Shown: piece by piece, positions 20,770-58,493 of the stretch
How positions within the stretch are numbered: position 1 is the first letter of the stretch
Layout: each line of letters opens with the position of its first letter
The notes under the pieces: model-generated
Database searches by the model: none
Seen by the model: only the letters and a program-made list of their open reading frames with translations
What the model was told of the DNA's origin: nothing
DNA from: Planctomycetota bacterium
GTDB taxonomy: Bacteria; Planctomycetota; Phycisphaerae; Phycisphaerales; Phycisphaeraceae
NCBI GenBank assembly: GCA_024276075.1
Contig: JAJRXX010000038.1
Coordinates: 1-64,000, forward strand
Reading direction: 5' to 3'
DNA length: 64,000 nt
Translations under genes and position numbers: made by a program

Positions 20770-21630
20770 ATGAACATGAAAAAGATGATCGTTTTGGCTG
20801 TGATGGTGTGTGCGGTATTGACCGGTCCCGTCGCTTGGGCTCAGGTCGAAGCGGTGACCAAGGCGCGTTACGACCTGCGGCTGGGCTTCACCGTCGGCGG
20901 CAAGGTGTCGCGCATTTTGGTAAAGCCGGGAGACCGCGTGAAAAAAGGGCAACTGCTGATCGAACTCGATGACGATGAGGGCAAGTCGCTGGTTGAGCTA
21001 TACCAGTTGCGTGCGTCGAGCGATCTGGCTGCGCAGTCGGCGGACGCGGGTTTGCGTCTAGCAAAGATAGAGGAAAAAGCCATCCGCAGGGCATTTGAAA
21101 AAGACGCCGCCATGCCCATCGAAGTCGAGCGGGCTCAACTCAACAGCATTCAGTCCAAACTAGAACTATTGATGGCCTACCAGCAAGGCCAAGAGGCGAA
21201 GCATCAGCTCCAGCAAGCCCAATCGCGTCACGATGAGTACATGCTCCACGCGCCGATCACTGGTATCGTGGATACGGTCACGGTATCTGAAGGCGAGCTA
21301 GTCGAGTCGCTCAAACCGATACTGCGCCTGGTCATGATTGATCCACTATGGGTCGATGCCAATGTGCCCACGCGCCAGACGCTGGGTCTTAATCCGGGCG
21401 ACACAGCGTGGGTGCGGTCGCAGTTGTTACCCAAAGACAGCGCCCCGATTCGTGGTAAGATAATCCACCTCGCCGAGGTCGCCGACGCCGCCAGTGACAC
21501 CCGCTTGGTCCGTATCGAAATGTCCAACGCTGAACACCTACCCGCCGGCAGTCAAGTCATCGTTACTTTTGACGCGTCTACGCCATCGACGTCGGCCGAG
21601 ACCGGCACCCAACGCACAGGTATTCGCTGA
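20770..21630 (+). CDS. HlyD/RND-type periplasmic adaptor protein
   Basis: 286 aa. Signal peptide or anchor KKMIVLAVMVCAVLTGPVAWA, then a first biotinyl-lipoyl half (FTVGGKVSRILVKPGDRVKK), a helical hairpin (about residues 70-150, rich in Gln/Ala/Glu), the second lipoyl half (MLHAPITGIVDTVTVSEGEL) and a beta-barrel part ending in SQVIVTF. It is short for an RND adaptor and lacks a C-terminal membrane-proximal domain. The ATG at 20770 is taken as start; a GTG at 20758 is possible. The stop overlaps the next start (TGATG). First of three adaptor-domain genes; divergent from hisI. Confidence 0.85.
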   Translation: MNMKKMIVLAVMVCAVLTGPVAWAQVEAVTKARYDLRLGFTVGGKVSRILVKPGDRVKKGQLLIELDDDEGKSLVELYQLRASSDLAAQSADAGLRLAKIEEKAIRRAFEKDAAMPIEVERAQLNSIQSKLELLMAYQQGQEAKHQLQQAQSRHDEYMLHAPITGIVDTVTVSEGELVESLKPILRLVMIDPLWVDANVPTRQTLGLNPGDTAWVRSQLLPKDSAPIRGKIIHLAEVADAASDTRLVRIEMSNAEHLPAGSQVIVTFDASTPSTSAETGTQRTGIR

Positions 21631-23525
21631 TGATGACTCAAGCCCCAGCGACAAACCGTCCCTCAGGCAGCGGGTGGGAGCGGATCGTCGAGCGCATTAA
21701 CGAAGCTTCCGACGAGCCCTCGTTCCTTGCCGCGATGCTCCAGCTCCAGTGCATGATCGTCGCTGCGGACTACGGCGCGATCTGGTTGACCGATGACCGC
21801 GGCGAGTTGCACCTCGGCGAGACTTGGCCCACAACGCTCAAGGAGCACGACCCCAACTCAGCGGTCGTCCAGATGCTACGCGAGGCCGCGACAGCCGGCT
21901 TGGCCCGCGGCAACAGCCATACCCTCAAGCTGCACATCGGAGACGAAGTCCCCTCCCCTGACACACAGCCCAAATCACTGGTGCACATCACCCCGATGCG
22001 TAGCCATGGCAAAATCGCGGCGGTATGCACCGCTGTCGCGGAGACGTCGGACCCGAAGGTCGCCAAGATCACCGCGCCGATGCGCGAGTTGGCGGCTGGT
22101 TTGTACGAAGGTTTTGAGAGCAGGCTAGACGCCCACGACTCGCGTCTCGACGCACAAGGTGTCCGCAGCGCCATGGCGTTGTTGGCGGTCAGCCAAGAGG
22201 GCAGAGGGTTTAACGGCGCCGCTTTAAATCTGGTTAACGAATTGGCGCGGCAACAGCAGTGCTCTCGGGTTTGCCTGGGCTGGGTTAAAGGCAAGTCCAT
22301 ACGCGTCGTAGCGATGAGTGATACCGAGCACCTCAAGCGTCATCACGAACAGGTGACGCGGTCCGAGATGGCCATGTCCGAGTGCCTCGATCAGCAGCAA
22401 CCGATTGTCTACCCCGTTTGGGAAGATGCCGAGCCTTTGCTGGCGCAAGCGGTCGTACACGCCCACCGCAGACTCACCGGCGATCACCCCTCGAAACACG
22501 TGTTGTCGATCCCGCTGCGCGACGGCGACGAGTGGGTCGGGGTGCTGCTGCTGGAACGGTCGGACGTGCCGTTTGACGATGATTTAATCCGATCACTACA
22601 GCTCGTAGCGGACGTGATCGCTCCGCACCTAGTTGATCGCCGCAGCAGCGACCGTTTCCTGTTTGTACACGCGTGGCACTCACTGATCGACGGGACCGGC
22701 TACGTACTGGGACCCAAGCACATCGGATGGAAACTGGTGGCGATCCTGGTCATGGCTGTACTGGGCGTAGCGGTCTTCGGCACTTGGCCTTACCACGTCT
22801 CCGCGCCGTTTACACTCGAAGCTCAGGACAAACGGATCGTACCGGCCCCCTATGAAGGCAGACTTGACCTTGTCAAAGTCGAGCCGGGCTTTGTCGTTCT
22901 CAAAGGGCAGTTGCTCGCTCAATTCGACACCACGGACCTGAAGCTGCAACTCGCTGAGACGACCGCTGAGGAAAAGAAGATCACGTTCGAGAAAAACCAA
23001 GCGACCGCTGAGAACAAACTCGCCGAAGCCCAACAGGCTCAGGCGCAGCTCGAGCAGATACAGTCTCGCATTAAGCTATTGCAATACCACATCGAAAAAG
23101 CGTCGATCCGCGCACCCATCGCTGGCGTTGTGCTCTCGGGATACTGGCACGACAAAGTGGGCGGTGTCCTTGAGCAGGGCAAACCCATGTTCGAGATATC
23201 TTCGATCAAGCAGCTACTCGCGATCGTGCGAGTCGAGGAGAGCGATATTGATCTGATCGACCTTGACCTTCGCCAGGACGGTCAGCTCGCGACGCGCAGC
23301 GTGCCGGAAGAAAAATTTGACATTATAGTCTCCCGCATCGTGCCCATGGCCACACCCATCGAGGGCACAAATGTCTTCGAAGTCCGCTGTGAGATCAAAG
23401 ACCCCGCCAAATGGCTGCGCCCGGGCATGGAGGGCCTGGCAAGGGTAAATGTCGGTGATCGGCGGATTATCTGGATACTCACGCATCGGATCATCAACAC
23501 CGTCCGGTTGTGGCTGTGGCTGTAG
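21630..23525 (+). CDS. GAF-domain protein fused to an HlyD-type adaptor
   Basis: 631 aa. Two GAF-like regions lie at about residues 10-165 (including MLQLQCMIVAADYGAIWLTD) and 185-335 (CSRVCLGWVKG, IPLRDGDEWVGVLLLERSD). One membrane helix follows at about 365-390 (WKLVAILVMAVLGVAVFGTW). The biotinyl-lipoyl domain with coiled coil is at about 395-490 (PAPYEGRLDLVKVEPGFVVL; IRAPIAGVVLSGYW) and an HlyD beta-barrel reaches the end. The GAF part would be cytoplasmic and the adaptor periplasmic, so a signal could pass across the membrane. Overlaps the previous gene by one base; the next gene starts 65 bases later. No pump is encoded nearby. Confidence 0.85.
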   Translation: MMTQAPATNRPSGSGWERIVERINEASDEPSFLAAMLQLQCMIVAADYGAIWLTDDRGELHLGETWPTTLKEHDPNSAVVQMLREAATAGLARGNSHTLKLHIGDEVPSPDTQPKSLVHITPMRSHGKIAAVCTAVAETSDPKVAKITAPMRELAAGLYEGFESRLDAHDSRLDAQGVRSAMALLAVSQEGRGFNGAALNLVNELARQQQCSRVCLGWVKGKSIRVVAMSDTEHLKRHHEQVTRSEMAMSECLDQQQPIVYPVWEDAEPLLAQAVVHAHRRLTGDHPSKHVLSIPLRDGDEWVGVLLLERSDVPFDDDLIRSLQLVADVIAPHLVDRRSSDRFLFVHAWHSLIDGTGYVLGPKHIGWKLVAILVMAVLGVAVFGTWPYHVSAPFTLEAQDKRIVPAPYEGRLDLVKVEPGFVVLKGQLLAQFDTTDLKLQLAETTAEEKKITFEKNQATAENKLAEAQQAQAQLEQIQSRIKLLQYHIEKASIRAPIAGVVLSGYWHDKVGGVLEQGKPMFEISSIKQLLAIVRVEESDIDLIDLDLRQDGQLATRSVPEEKFDIIVSRIVPMATPIEGTNVFEVRCEIKDPAKWLRPGMEGLARVNVGDRRIIWILTHRIINTVRLWLWL

Positions 23526-23590
23526 AACCCGGTGGCACGGAGCGGCCGTTCTTGGCGAATTAACCCTCTTACTTTGAGCAATGCACACCC

Positions 23591-25768
23591 GTGGAACGCC
23601 CCACCTTTAGCCAATCATGGAGCCGAGTCAGCAAGCTGACGCCGACGCTGCGCCCACACGTCCAGATCACACGCCAGCTATTCCGCGGTGAGCCGTGGTA
23701 CGTGGTCCACGACCCGGTGAGCAATAATTTTTTTCGGCTAAACCCCGTCGCACACCACCTCGTCGGGCTATTCGATGGCCGGCGTTCCGTAGACGAGGTC
23801 TGGCGGCTGACGCTCGACCGTTTCGGCGACATGGCGCCAACCCAGCACGAAGTGATCGGCTTGCTTGGACAACTAAACGAATCGAACTTGCTACGAGTCG
23901 ACCTGCCGTCGGATGCTGAGCCTTTGCTCCGCCGCGCACGCAAGCGCAAGGTCAAGCACTGGGGCGGACAGATGATGAGCATCCTGTTCTTCCGCGTCCC
24001 GGTGTTTAATCCCGACCGTATGCTGCGTTGGCTGCTGCCACTATTTCGGCCGCTGTTGTCGATCGTGGGGCTGCTGATGTGGCTGGCGTGGATCGGATAC
24101 GTCACCGTCCAATTTCTCCCAAGCATCGGCTCGTTTATCAACGACGCACAAAGTGTTCTGGCACCGACCAATTGGGGCTGGATGATTGTGTTGTTTTTGG
24201 GAACCAAATTCCTGCACGAGTTGGGCCACGGGCTGGTGTGTAGGCGGTTTGGCGGATCGGTGCCCGAGGTCGGGATCATGCTGCTGGTGATGTTCCCCGT
24301 GCCCTACGTCGACGCAACGAGTTCTTGGAACTTTACGAGCAAATGGCACCGTTTTTTCGTCGGCGCTGCGGGCATGATCTTCGAGTTAGCGATTGCTGGC
24401 ATAGGCATCATGATCTGGCTGCACGCCGAACCCGGATCACTGGCCAAGCAACTCTCCTACAACACGGTCTTCATGGCGTCGGTCGCCACCATCTTGTTTA
24501 ACGCCAACCCCCTGCTCAAGTTCGACGGCTACTACATGCTCAGCGACGTGCTGGAGATCCCAAATCTGTACGACCGTGCCAGCCGATACCTGCAATGGTT
24601 AATCCAACGGTACATCTACGGCATGACAAACGCCCAGCCGGTCAGCACCCGACACGGCGAGCAGTCTCTCCTGATCCTTTACGGCATATGCAGCCAAATT
24701 TATAAGGTCATCATCCTTTTCGGGATCATCCTATTCGTCGGAAGTCAATTCCACGCGGTAGGCATCCTATTGGCGGCTTGGTCCACTATCGCATGGGCAC
24801 TGGTGCCGCTGGGCAAGTTTATCCATTGGCTGGCGACACACCCGTCCCTCCACGAGCACCGGGTACGAGCGATCACAACCACGGTCTTATTTTGCTTCCT
24901 GCTACTGGGCACGCTCGGAGCGATACCGATGCCCGAACACCACCGAGCTGTGGGCGTAGTCGAAGCGGCCAAACGCACCGACCTAGCCATCCGAACCGAC
25001 GGCTTCGTGACAAAAGTCCTCGCTGAGGCGGGTGATCATGTGCAACAGGGGCAGATCATCCTCATCACCGACAGCCCGGAGCTACGCGTCAAATACGTAG
25101 AACTCACCGCTAAGCTCAAGGGCCTCCGCTCCGCACAACGCCAGGCGCTCGCCCAGGACCAAGTGATTCTCAAGAGCACCAGGGCAAAAATCGAAGCGGT
25201 CACCGAAGAGCTAACCAAAGTGCAGGAACGCCTCGACGATCTGACGCTGCGCAGCCCGATGCAGGGCACGCTAGTCGGCGGCATCATGACGCAATTCCTC
25301 GGCCAACACCTGCCTCGGGGCAAGGTCATCGGCCAAGTCGTGGACCTGGACACGCTTCGCGTCACGGCACTGATGGACCAGGCACAAAACGCCAAGCTGT
25401 TTGACCAAGCCAACACAATCGCGCGTGTGGAGCTACGCACCGCAGGTCAATTGGAACGCACCCTACGCAGTAAGTTGATTCAGGCATTCCCTTCAGGGCG
25501 ATCACATCTGCCACACCCCGCGTTGGGATACGCAGGTGGCGGATCGATCGCCATATCTACCGACGACCCACACGGCCAGACCGCCACGCGCCCGCAATTT
25601 GAACTTTGGCTCAAACTACCCGACTGGCGAGGCGGAACCAACACCTACGCCACCGCATTCCCCGGCCAGCGAGTCTATGTTCGACTCACCTCTGAGCAGT
25701 ACACCCCGTTGCTCGCGCAGTGGATACACAAGTTAAGACAGTTGTTCCGCGAACGGCTTAGTATTTAA
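23591..25768 (+). CDS. PqqD-like / M50 metalloprotease / HlyD adaptor fusion
   Basis: 725 aa. Residues 15-110 look like a PqqD-type peptide-binding winged helix (HDPVSNNFFRLNPVAHHLV). The membrane core follows with zinc motif HELGH at residues 209-213 and the third-ligand motif NANPLLKFDGYYM with Asp at residue 312, so all site-2-protease residues are present. About residues 405-425 form another helix, then comes a lipoyl/HlyD part (FVTKVLAEAGDHVQQGQI, coiled coil, LRSPMQGTLVGG, barrel). The start is GTG at 23591. This is the YydH/putative peptide zinc metalloprotease group. A PqqD domain usually means contact with a peptide substrate; none is visible here. Confidence 0.85.
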   Translation: MERPTFSQSWSRVSKLTPTLRPHVQITRQLFRGEPWYVVHDPVSNNFFRLNPVAHHLVGLFDGRRSVDEVWRLTLDRFGDMAPTQHEVIGLLGQLNESNLLRVDLPSDAEPLLRRARKRKVKHWGGQMMSILFFRVPVFNPDRMLRWLLPLFRPLLSIVGLLMWLAWIGYVTVQFLPSIGSFINDAQSVLAPTNWGWMIVLFLGTKFLHELGHGLVCRRFGGSVPEVGIMLLVMFPVPYVDATSSWNFTSKWHRFFVGAAGMIFELAIAGIGIMIWLHAEPGSLAKQLSYNTVFMASVATILFNANPLLKFDGYYMLSDVLEIPNLYDRASRYLQWLIQRYIYGMTNAQPVSTRHGEQSLLILYGICSQIYKVIILFGIILFVGSQFHAVGILLAAWSTIAWALVPLGKFIHWLATHPSLHEHRVRAITTTVLFCFLLLGTLGAIPMPEHHRAVGVVEAAKRTDLAIRTDGFVTKVLAEAGDHVQQGQIILITDSPELRVKYVELTAKLKGLRSAQRQALAQDQVILKSTRAKIEAVTEELTKVQERLDDLTLRSPMQGTLVGGIMTQFLGQHLPRGKVIGQVVDLDTLRVTALMDQAQNAKLFDQANTIARVELRTAGQLERTLRSKLIQAFPSGRSHLPHPALGYAGGGSIAISTDDPHGQTATRPQFELWLKLPDWRGGTNTYATAFPGQRVYVRLTSEQYTPLLAQWIHKLRQLFRERLSI

Positions 25769-26094
25769 CCCTCGCATCGCCACTAATACGCTTTCAGATA
25801 CATCCGTGCATGATCGTAACGAGCCCCGACCGTGAGGACATTATGCACGTATCACACGGGAATAGTTCTCAAGGAACACCGGGTGGCACTGGTTGCTTGC
25901 AACCAGTGAGTCACGATTGGCCCAACCACAGCTTGCAAGCAAATCGTGATTGACGCAAGGGGTTACAAATATTGGTGCATAATGTCCGTCAGAAAACAGG
26001 CAATTTGCTGTAACCAAACGCTACAGATGCGTTGAGAATGCTCTATACTGGCGATTCGACTAACCCTGATACCCGACTTTCTCGTGGAGACGCC
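25769..26094. other. intergenic region with repeat-C hairpins
   Basis: No coding frame is credible. It holds the two hairpins of repeat C (25881-25949) downstream of the M50 gene. The last 100 bases before 26095 presumably carry the DUF1844 promoter; no clear -35/-10 pair was seen. Confidence 0.5.
25881..25949. repeat. dispersed hairpin repeat C, copy 1
   Basis: GGGTGGCACTGGTTGCTTGC opens the element. CACTGGTTG (25887-25895) pairs perfectly with CAACCAGTG (25900-25908) across CTTG. A second stem TCACGATT (25911-25918) pairs with AATCGTGA (25942-25949) and encloses another GCTTGCAAGC palindrome. A related copy is at 33438-33500. Both lie at gene 3' ends. Confidence 0.7.
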
Positions 26095-26502
26095 ATGACT
26101 GACAGCGACACCGGTTCCAAGATTCACATCGACGCCGACTGGAAAGCCCAAGCCCAAGCTGAGAAGGAAAAGCTCGCCCAACAAGCCAAGTCTTCGGAAG
26201 GTCAAGGCCCCGGCAGCGCTAAATCCGGCCCCGGTGGGCTGCCACCCGCCACGTTTGAGTCGCTCGTGAGCACCATGGCTACGCAGGCGCTGTTCTCGTT
26301 GGGTGCGATCCCCGACCCACGCACCGGGCAACGCATAGTTCACCTCGACTTAGCACGCCACCACATTGATATGCTCAATGTCATCGAGGAAAAGACCAAG
26401 GGCAACCTGACGGACGAAGAGAGCAAAATGATCACCACGACGACGTACGAACTACGGTCGCGTTACATCCAGGCCGCCAGCGGCGCACGGGGTGCTATGT
26501 AA
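26095..26502 (+). CDS. DUF1844 family protein
   Basis: 135 aa. The first 55 residues are charged and Gly/Pro/Gln-rich. The core FESLVSTMATQALFSLGAIPDP, DLARHHIDMLNVIEEKTKGN and LTDEESKMI is the DUF1844 signature, a small helical protein of unknown function found in planctomycetes and several other phyla. The start is the ATG at 26095, with GGAG 8 bases in front; earlier in-frame starts lack one. It precedes the sdh genes by about 165 bases; a functional link is not shown. Confidence 0.9.
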   Translation: MTDSDTGSKIHIDADWKAQAQAEKEKLAQQAKSSEGQGPGSAKSGPGGLPPATFESLVSTMATQALFSLGAIPDPRTGQRIVHLDLARHHIDMLNVIEEKTKGNLTDEESKMITTTTYELRSRYIQAASGARGAM

Positions 26503-57425: not shown

Positions 57426-58493
57426 GTGACCGACAAACCGCTACTGAAGATCGAAGACTTAGCTGTTAGCTTCCCCACGTCGGGTAGCCTCGACCACCGT
57501 GTGCGCGCGGTCAACGGCCTAAACCTGTCGATCTACCCGCGCCAAACCTTGGCCATCGTCGGCGAATCGGGCTGCGGCAAATCGGTCTCAGCACTGTCAA
57601 CGCTCCAACTGATCCCCACGCCGCCGGGCCGATACGATCAAGGCCGCATCTGGTGGGACGCCGACGGTCAGCCTTGCGACTTGCTGAGCCTGTCAGAAAA
57701 GGAAATCCGCCGGGTCCGGGGCAATCAGATCGCCATGATCTTCCAGGAGCCCATGACCAGCCTCAACCCCGTCTACACCATCGGCGAGCAAATACTCGAA
57801 GCCATCCTCATCCACCAAAAAACACGCCGCGCCCAGGCCAGGCAAATTGCCACGCAAGCACTCACCGACGTCGGTATCGCCGATCCACACGCTCGGCTCG
57901 ACGAGTACCCTCACCAGCTATCGGGCGGTATGCGTCAGCGCGTCATGATCGCCATGGCGCTGGCGTGTCAGCCCAGGCTCCTGCTAGCCGACGAGCCCAC
58001 CACCGCGCTCGATGTCACCATCCAGGCACAAATTTTAGAACTGCTGCGCAAGCTCCAACGCGAACGCGGCATGTCGGTCCTGCTGATCACGCACGACCTG
58101 GGCGTCGTCGCTGAAAACGCCGACACCGTTGCCGTCATGTACGCCGGCAGGATCGTCGAATACGGGTCCGTGCACGACATTTTCAGTCAACCGCTGCACC
58201 CTTACACCCGGGGCTTGCTCGCGTCCATGCCCGTATTGGGTAAACGGCACGAGCGCCTAACGACCATCCCCGGCAGCGTGCCCAACCCCGCTGACTTCCC
58301 CTCCGGGTGCCCCTTCCACCCCCGCTGCGTTGATATGAAAGACGACCCAAAATGCACCGCAGACGATCCGCCGCTACGCGAGATACACGAAAAACACTGG
58401 GCCGCGTGCTGGCACACACCTGGTCACAACCAAGCCCAGACGACCACGCCCGACCTGTCCTACCGCCGACCGGAAGCCGCGCCGGTTGTCTAG
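57426..58493 (+). CDS. oppD: oligopeptide ABC transporter ATPase (OppD type)
   Basis: 355 aa. Walker [17 protein letters not shown]-loop [15 protein letters not shown], signature [15 protein letters not shown], Walker [14 protein letters not shown]-loop [12 protein letters not shown]. The C-terminal oligopeptide-transporter domain has the cysteine cluster GCPFHPRC and AACWH. The start is GTG at 57426. No OppF partner follows: repeat B begins at the stop codon. The second ATPase may be encoded elsewhere or this subunit may work as a homodimer. Confidence 0.95.

Follow-up and report, generated by a model that had tools for sequence, protein, structure and literature searches.

Three neighbouring plus-strand genes in the analysed window, a 64,000-nucleotide stretch of a planctomycete genome (2.88 Mb, 77 contigs), probably encode the envelope core of a type-I-like secretion machine assisted by SecA; its clients would be giant surface proteins marked at the N-terminus by a LEPR-XLL motif. 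The trio is a member of a module described by Kamneva, Poudel & Ward in 2015 (PLoS One, PMC4452313), and the impression of a first-pass annotation of this DNA, that it could not be matched to a described system, does not hold. New here is a substrate for that module, the LEPR-XLL (NF012209) giant proteins, which is strongly supported by genomics. The evidence is genomic throughout, and each mechanistic step is inferred from it.

Architecture of the three-gene cluster

Genes 1 and 2 abut, and gene 3 follows after a gap of 65 bases. Gene 1 (positions 20770-21630, + strand, ATG start) encodes a plain HlyD/RND-type periplasmic adaptor of 286 amino acids, as first annotated, with family-search matches to HlyD_D23 (E 9.6e-23) and, above its cut-off, to TIGR01730 (RND_mfp). 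Its N-terminus is signal-peptide-like, consisting of a single hydrophobic segment followed by AWA. Gene 2 (21630-23525, + strand, 631 amino acids) comprises a GAF domain at residues 200-331 (E 6e-12), one transmembrane segment near residues 363-381, and an HlyD adaptor (HlyD_3, E 1.4e-15). From the GAF-GAF-helix-HlyD order originally proposed, the second GAF and the HlyD part are retained; the claimed first GAF at residues 17-174 gave nothing in a Pfam search, even at E 5.

Gene 3 (23591-25768, + strand, GTG start) encodes 725 amino acids and consists of a PqqD-like (RRE) domain, an M50 intramembrane metalloprotease core and an HlyD adaptor, with matches to PqqD (E 6e-6), M50 (E 6e-7) and HlyD_D23 (E 1e-8). 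The active site is intact, in agreement with the initial reading: HELGH occupies residues 209-213, and the aspartate of NPLLKFDG is residue 312. Both histidines and the glutamate of HExxH, as well as the NPxxxxDG aspartate, are invariant in 16/16 and in 30/30 aligned homologues, the opposite of the widespread catalytic loss that had been named as grounds for refuting the earlier reading. With these two motifs and a helical membrane core in its structural model, gene 3 has the features of an M50 (site-2) protease. The AlphaFold model (30-sequence alignment, mean pLDDT 84.5) shows a compact N-domain, the helical membrane core and an adaptor with its hairpin. In structure searches the C-terminal adaptor part superposes on MacA, AcrA and MexA with Z-scores of 13-16; these searches are dominated by the adaptor domain and are uninformative on the M50 core versus solved S2P structures. 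The N-terminus is assigned to PqqD/RRE by profile, both against PF05402 (26.9 bits, cut-off 23.4) and against the solved PqqD 3g2b (E 2e-5). In RiPP systems, PqqD-like domains bind leader peptides. Residues 18-400 align with positions 1-359 of the 379 in the daptide_HExxH model NF041824 (E 1.8e-49), at a score of 168.9 bits that lies under the curated cut-off of 300 bits.

After the trio, a DUF1844 protein (window positions 26032-26502) precedes fumarate reductase/succinate dehydrogenase-type genes, and the same neighbours are present in one relative (L048).

Module partners in relatives and other phyla

Among 61 genomes, the own genome and its relatives, 52 match gene 3, two of them via the adaptor part only, so that 50 carry the M50 protein. 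Up to 20 kb were fetched around 40 M50 genes of relatives and around a second own copy, and genes were called and clustered. The gene order of the trio is repeated in about 40 loci of relatives, so its arrangement is not due to chance, and the earlier suggestion that such trios recur in planctomycetes proves correct. A GAF-HlyD gene adjoins the M50 gene in 32/40 Phycisphaerales-type and 59/70 other loci, and a gene 1 homologue lies beside it in 24/40 and 43/70, respectively. Genes were called with a simple codon-bias routine, by which the M50 gene was overlooked in 17/87 loci.

Immediately 3' of the M50 gene, 18 relative loci encode a short SecA-like ATPase of approximately 680 amino acids, which matches the NCBIfam SecA/SecA2 models at E 1e-113 to 1e-167, under every full-length cut-off. 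Its presence is concordant with that of the M50 protein in 60/61 genomes (49 with both, one with M50 only, none with the ATPase only, 11 with neither; Fisher p 3e-11). A phylum-wide count of short SecA was dropped, as canonical SecA (approximately 870-1400 amino acids) swamps the table. In the own genome, the short SecA (G000:C55:54768-56759, 664 amino acids) is encoded on a contig other than that of the window, and TolC-type (OEP) genes are likewise present elsewhere; the trio itself has neither a LEPR gene nor SecA or TolC as a neighbour, and these components are scattered in the genome. In public plasmid records, short SecA-like ATPases are mislabelled 'prepilin peptidase' (L115:16204-18120 and L116:17059-19083), while Pfam assigns SecA_DEAD and the SecA P-loop.

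A DUF3467 protein (approximately 100-130 amino acids, around 127 in the relatives, acidic or neutral) is encoded 5' of the M50 gene in 14/40 relative loci, and a TolC-type gene lies beside 11/70 homologous proteobacterial and other loci. We considered DUF3467 as a SecB-like chaperone and found no support: its AlphaFold model is weak (pLDDT 68, pTM 0.43), a Foldseek search yielded nothing at E <= 0.001, with SecB missing from the hits listed, and neither a PDB sequence relative nor a weak Pfam SecB match was found. SapC-family proteins, which are known from loci for S-layer transport in Campylobacter, occur beside the module in 12/70 loci, from Rhodobacterales and other Alphaproteobacteria (L116, L149-L154, L161-L163, L166). 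Plasmid records illustrate how these components are combined: LEPR-XLL - HlyD - M50 - SapC - SecA - HlyD in Pseudosulfitobacter, LEPR-XLL - DUF3467 - HlyD - M50 - HlyD - TolC in Thalassospira, and giant - DUF3467 - HlyD - M50 - SecA - HlyD - TolC in Methylosinus. As judged from gene neighbourhoods, the device extends beyond the trio, and the short SecA-like ATPase and often TolC, DUF3467 or SapC belong to it.

Absence of a conserved pump

The trio had been read as a secretion-type device that lacks an ABC or RND pump, with the M50 membrane core where the pump would sit, and the neighbourhood data bear this out. Within the window, no ABC-ATPase pattern is found within 30 kb of the trio; the nearest, at 57426-58493, is in an unrelated gene. 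Within seven genes on either side of the M50 gene, the pattern is present in 0/40 Phycisphaerales-type and 4/70 proteobacterial or other loci, and an RND gene occurs in only 2/42 relative loci, each time beside separate adaptors. A hidden ABC or RND pump is rejected, as neither is kept near M50 across homologous loci; a consistently adjoining pump, which would have spoken against the earlier reading, is not what the homologues show. The trio has neither the ABC transporter beside the adaptor that characterizes classical type I secretion nor the RND transporter paired with an adaptor that characterizes an RND tripartite pump. The neighbourhood search proposed at the outset for a TolC, a pump or a small peptide gene yielded the first, beside the 11 loci above; it yielded no conserved pump and, among 42 loci, no conserved RiPP-like small peptide gene.

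LEPR-XLL giant proteins track the module

Giant proteins with an N-terminal LEPR-XLL motif (NF012209) occur in several M50 loci. Their N-termini combine a short, positively charged (basic) tail with the conserved motif h-E-x-L-E-P-R-h-L-[LMF]-S-[AG], and a hydrophobic stretch of signal-peptide strength before the motif is mostly absent. The own genome contains 12 LEPR matches, 8 of them at or over the cut-off, corresponding to about ten LEPR-XLL genes; by inspection, all 12 have the motif close to the N-terminus, preceded by a basic stretch. The largest of these frames (G000:C45:12170-43034) spans approximately 10,335 codons and has a dockerin-like C-terminus.

Across the 61 genomes, with LEPR matches taken at E 0.05, LEPR-XLL and M50 occur together in 43, M50 alone in 7, LEPR-XLL alone in none and neither in 11 (p 8e-8). 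The 11 relatives without M50 have no LEPR match better than E 0.08, and the short SecA is absent from them as well. One whole related family in the order-level set (f3) has no M50 protein, short SecA or confident LEPR-XLL and forms a natural negative control.

Of 294 genomes sampled across the phylum, each at least 90% complete and with the short LEPR matches taken at E 0.01, 44 have both, 2 LEPR only, 57 M50 only and 191 neither (Fisher p 1e-21). This test assumes independent genomes, and the table collapsed to 69 families is safer: 16 have both, none LEPR only, 16 M50 only and 37 neither (p 3e-7). An M50 protein, as expected of an LEPR-XLL exporter, is thus present in 44/46 LEPR-positive genomes and 16/16 LEPR-positive families, with no clear M50 in the two remaining genomes (G142, G264). 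Conversely, 57/101 M50-positive planctomycete genomes have no LEPR match at E 0.01, for which a diverged motif or other clients are suggested alternatives. Physical linkage in the phylum, counted by eye, amounts to 9 of approximately 148 listed LEPR genes within about 15 kb of an M50 gene, versus approximately 1.3 expected.

When named genomes were scanned with the M50 profile, 80 loci were retrieved, almost all of them in Alpha-, Beta-, Gamma- and Deltaproteobacteria. Among M50-bearing genomes of other phyla, 45/48 have LEPR-XLL over the cut-off, compared with 0/14 control genomes, and the proteobacterial LEPR proteins often have open frames of 8,000-14,000 codons. In 35/48 of these genomes an LEPR giant and the M50 gene are no more than 10 kb apart, in 34 on the same strand, to be read against a chance linkage rate that is a rough estimate. 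These distances are based on frame lengths, and the contigs were matched by their exact lengths. The linked giant is usually directly 5' of the M50 gene, with only DUF3467 and GAF-HlyD intervening, and annotated records give the order LEPR-XLL or giant - DUF3467 - GAF-HlyD - M50-HlyD - SecA - HlyD - TolC. Large ORF size alone was rejected as evidence for a substrate in planctomycetes: large ORFs occur in 19/40 Phycisphaerales-type loci and in 10/20 random control windows. Since they are no commoner than in controls, the evidence for these loci reduces to the LEPR motif and to co-occurrence across whole genomes. Taken as comparative genomic evidence, the link from the module to the LEPR-XLL giants is strongly supported.

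The own genome has a second M50 cluster (contig C42) with the order giant C-terminus - PilZ - GAF-HlyD - M50-HlyD, faced by an HlyD gene. The LEPR gene that lies at the terminus of contig C75 most probably encodes the first part of this giant: the two overlap by 104 residues at 95% identity, and at the orthologous locus of a related genome (L060) a single unbroken LEPR gene immediately precedes PilZ and M50. The PilZ gene (c-di-GMP-type, L008:1172-1618 on G000:C42) is located between the LEPR giant and GAF-HlyD, an arrangement with an orthologous counterpart in L060, and its position hints at second-messenger control. Some giants (the L008 C-terminus near 760-837 and the giants of L060 and L072) share a C-terminal motif like LxxLWxMhRxxG, which may act as a further signal for sorting or retention.

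Proposed mechanism and alternatives

We postulate that the client is synthesized with no Sec signal peptide and carries a basic N-terminal tail that ends in h-E-x-L-E-P-R-h-L-L-S-A. By analogy with RiPP RRE domains, the N-terminal PqqD-like domain of gene 3 would bind this LEPR-XLL leader at the cytoplasmic face. The M50 core would then cut the leader in or at the membrane, which would license or start export, and the short SecA-like ATPase would thread the unfolded chain and supply the force. The three HlyD-type adaptors may build a periplasmic channel towards a TolC-type outer-membrane protein, and the GAF part of gene 2, along with PilZ in the second cluster, may tune activity. The full form of this proposal is put forward tentatively, and we regard it as possible rather than probable: export would be independent of both Sec and ABC, a PqqD-M50 inner-membrane gate would be opened by the cut of the LEPR-XLL leader, and a SecA-like motor acting on its own would push giant proteins directly through an HlyD-TolC conduit. 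If true, RiPP-like recognition and giant-protein secretion would for the first time be seen to share an N-terminal leader, LEPR-XLL.

An unlikely alternative is that the clients cross by SecYEG, with the SecA-like ATPase as an accessory SecA2, and that the trio acts later, in outer-membrane passage or in the cleaving or retention of adhesins at the surface. The secondary SecA branches near actinobacterial SecA2 (PMC4452313) and gene 1 is a periplasmic adaptor, both of which fit such a role. However, the LEPR N-termini lack a Sec signal peptide, the secondary SecA (approximately 670 amino acids) is without the SecYEG-binding scaffold/wing part (PMC4452313), and the PqqD-like and GAF parts are cytoplasmic by topology.

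It is improbable that the trio is instead a small-molecule or envelope-homeostasis efflux or stress device, in which adaptors are combined with M50 signalling and the co-occurrence with LEPR-XLL reflects a shared lifestyle. M50 proteases are often signalling proteases, gene 1 scores as an RND-type adaptor, and co-occurrence by itself could arise from lifestyle, but the close and almost always same-strand linkage of LEPR giants to M50 in 35/48 genomes argues against this, as do a SecA-type ATPase, which is a protein motor and not a drug pump, and the lack of any RND or ABC gene conserved alongside. The peptide processing and export originally suggested, a signal-gated device in which M50/PqqD matures a RiPP-like peptide that leaves through the adaptors, is likewise improbable: although the PqqD-like and M50 halves resemble the daptide and YydH/LiaK peptide-maturation proteases, the daptide and LiaK family cut-offs are unreached, clustering of the 42 loci gave no conserved RiPP-like precursor gene, the sole recurrent small gene is that of DUF3467, a domain protein, and the recurrent linked large substrate is the LEPR-XLL giant.

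Relation to known systems

The secretion core proposed here corresponds to the 2015 module in its HlyD, GAF-HlyD and M50-HlyD genes, the short secondary SecA, the occasional OEP and the phyla concerned. Its authors noted that no ABC transporter is present, proposed the M50 protein as a pore in place of ABC and SecA as the ATPase, and called the biological role of the module 'completely unknown' (PMC4452313). The window agrees with that description: the three genes stand together, and a short SecA_DEAD protein without most of SecA_SW is encoded elsewhere in the genome. The SecA gene is unlinked here, and cases of SecA unlinked to the module are included in PMC4452313. The earlier description differs in that it names no substrate, draws no link to LEPR-XLL, DUF3467, PilZ or SapC, and leaves the PqqD-like leader-binding domain unrecognised; the terms LEPR and DUF3467 are absent from its main text. 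Within the open-licence PMC literature searched, LEPR-XLL appears in two papers only, one of which is silent on an exporter, and literature beyond that may differ.

Type I secretion of giant adhesins (HlyBD-TolC, LapBCE, SapDEF) likewise uses HlyD adaptors and a TolC-type exit for very large repetitive surface proteins, and SapC is found beside some module loci. In contrast to these systems, the module has an M50 protein and a SecA-like ATPase and no ABC transporter, and its clients bear the N-terminal LEPR-XLL tag, whereas type I adhesins have a C-terminal signal. The daptide (NF041824) and epipeptide YydH/LiaK (NF058609) proteases share the PqqD/RRE-like domain, the M50 core and a leader-bearing substrate, but gene 3 is fused to an HlyD adaptor, scores far under their cut-offs and is linked to a giant protein. 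Peptidase-containing ABC exporters (C39-PCAT and NHLP type) are comparable by analogy, as they couple leader cleavage to export; the peptidase of the module is M50 and not C39, and an ABC part is missing.

The 2015 module had no cargo assigned to it, and for the LEPR-XLL tag, which is carried by some of the largest proteins in bacteria, no exporter was known in the literature searched; the link between them makes both testable. It suggests a secretion route in which a SecA-type motor and an M50 protease take the place of the ABC transporter, in Planctomycetota and in many Pseudomonadota, among them culturable Bradyrhizobium, Methylobacterium and Cellvibrio strains.
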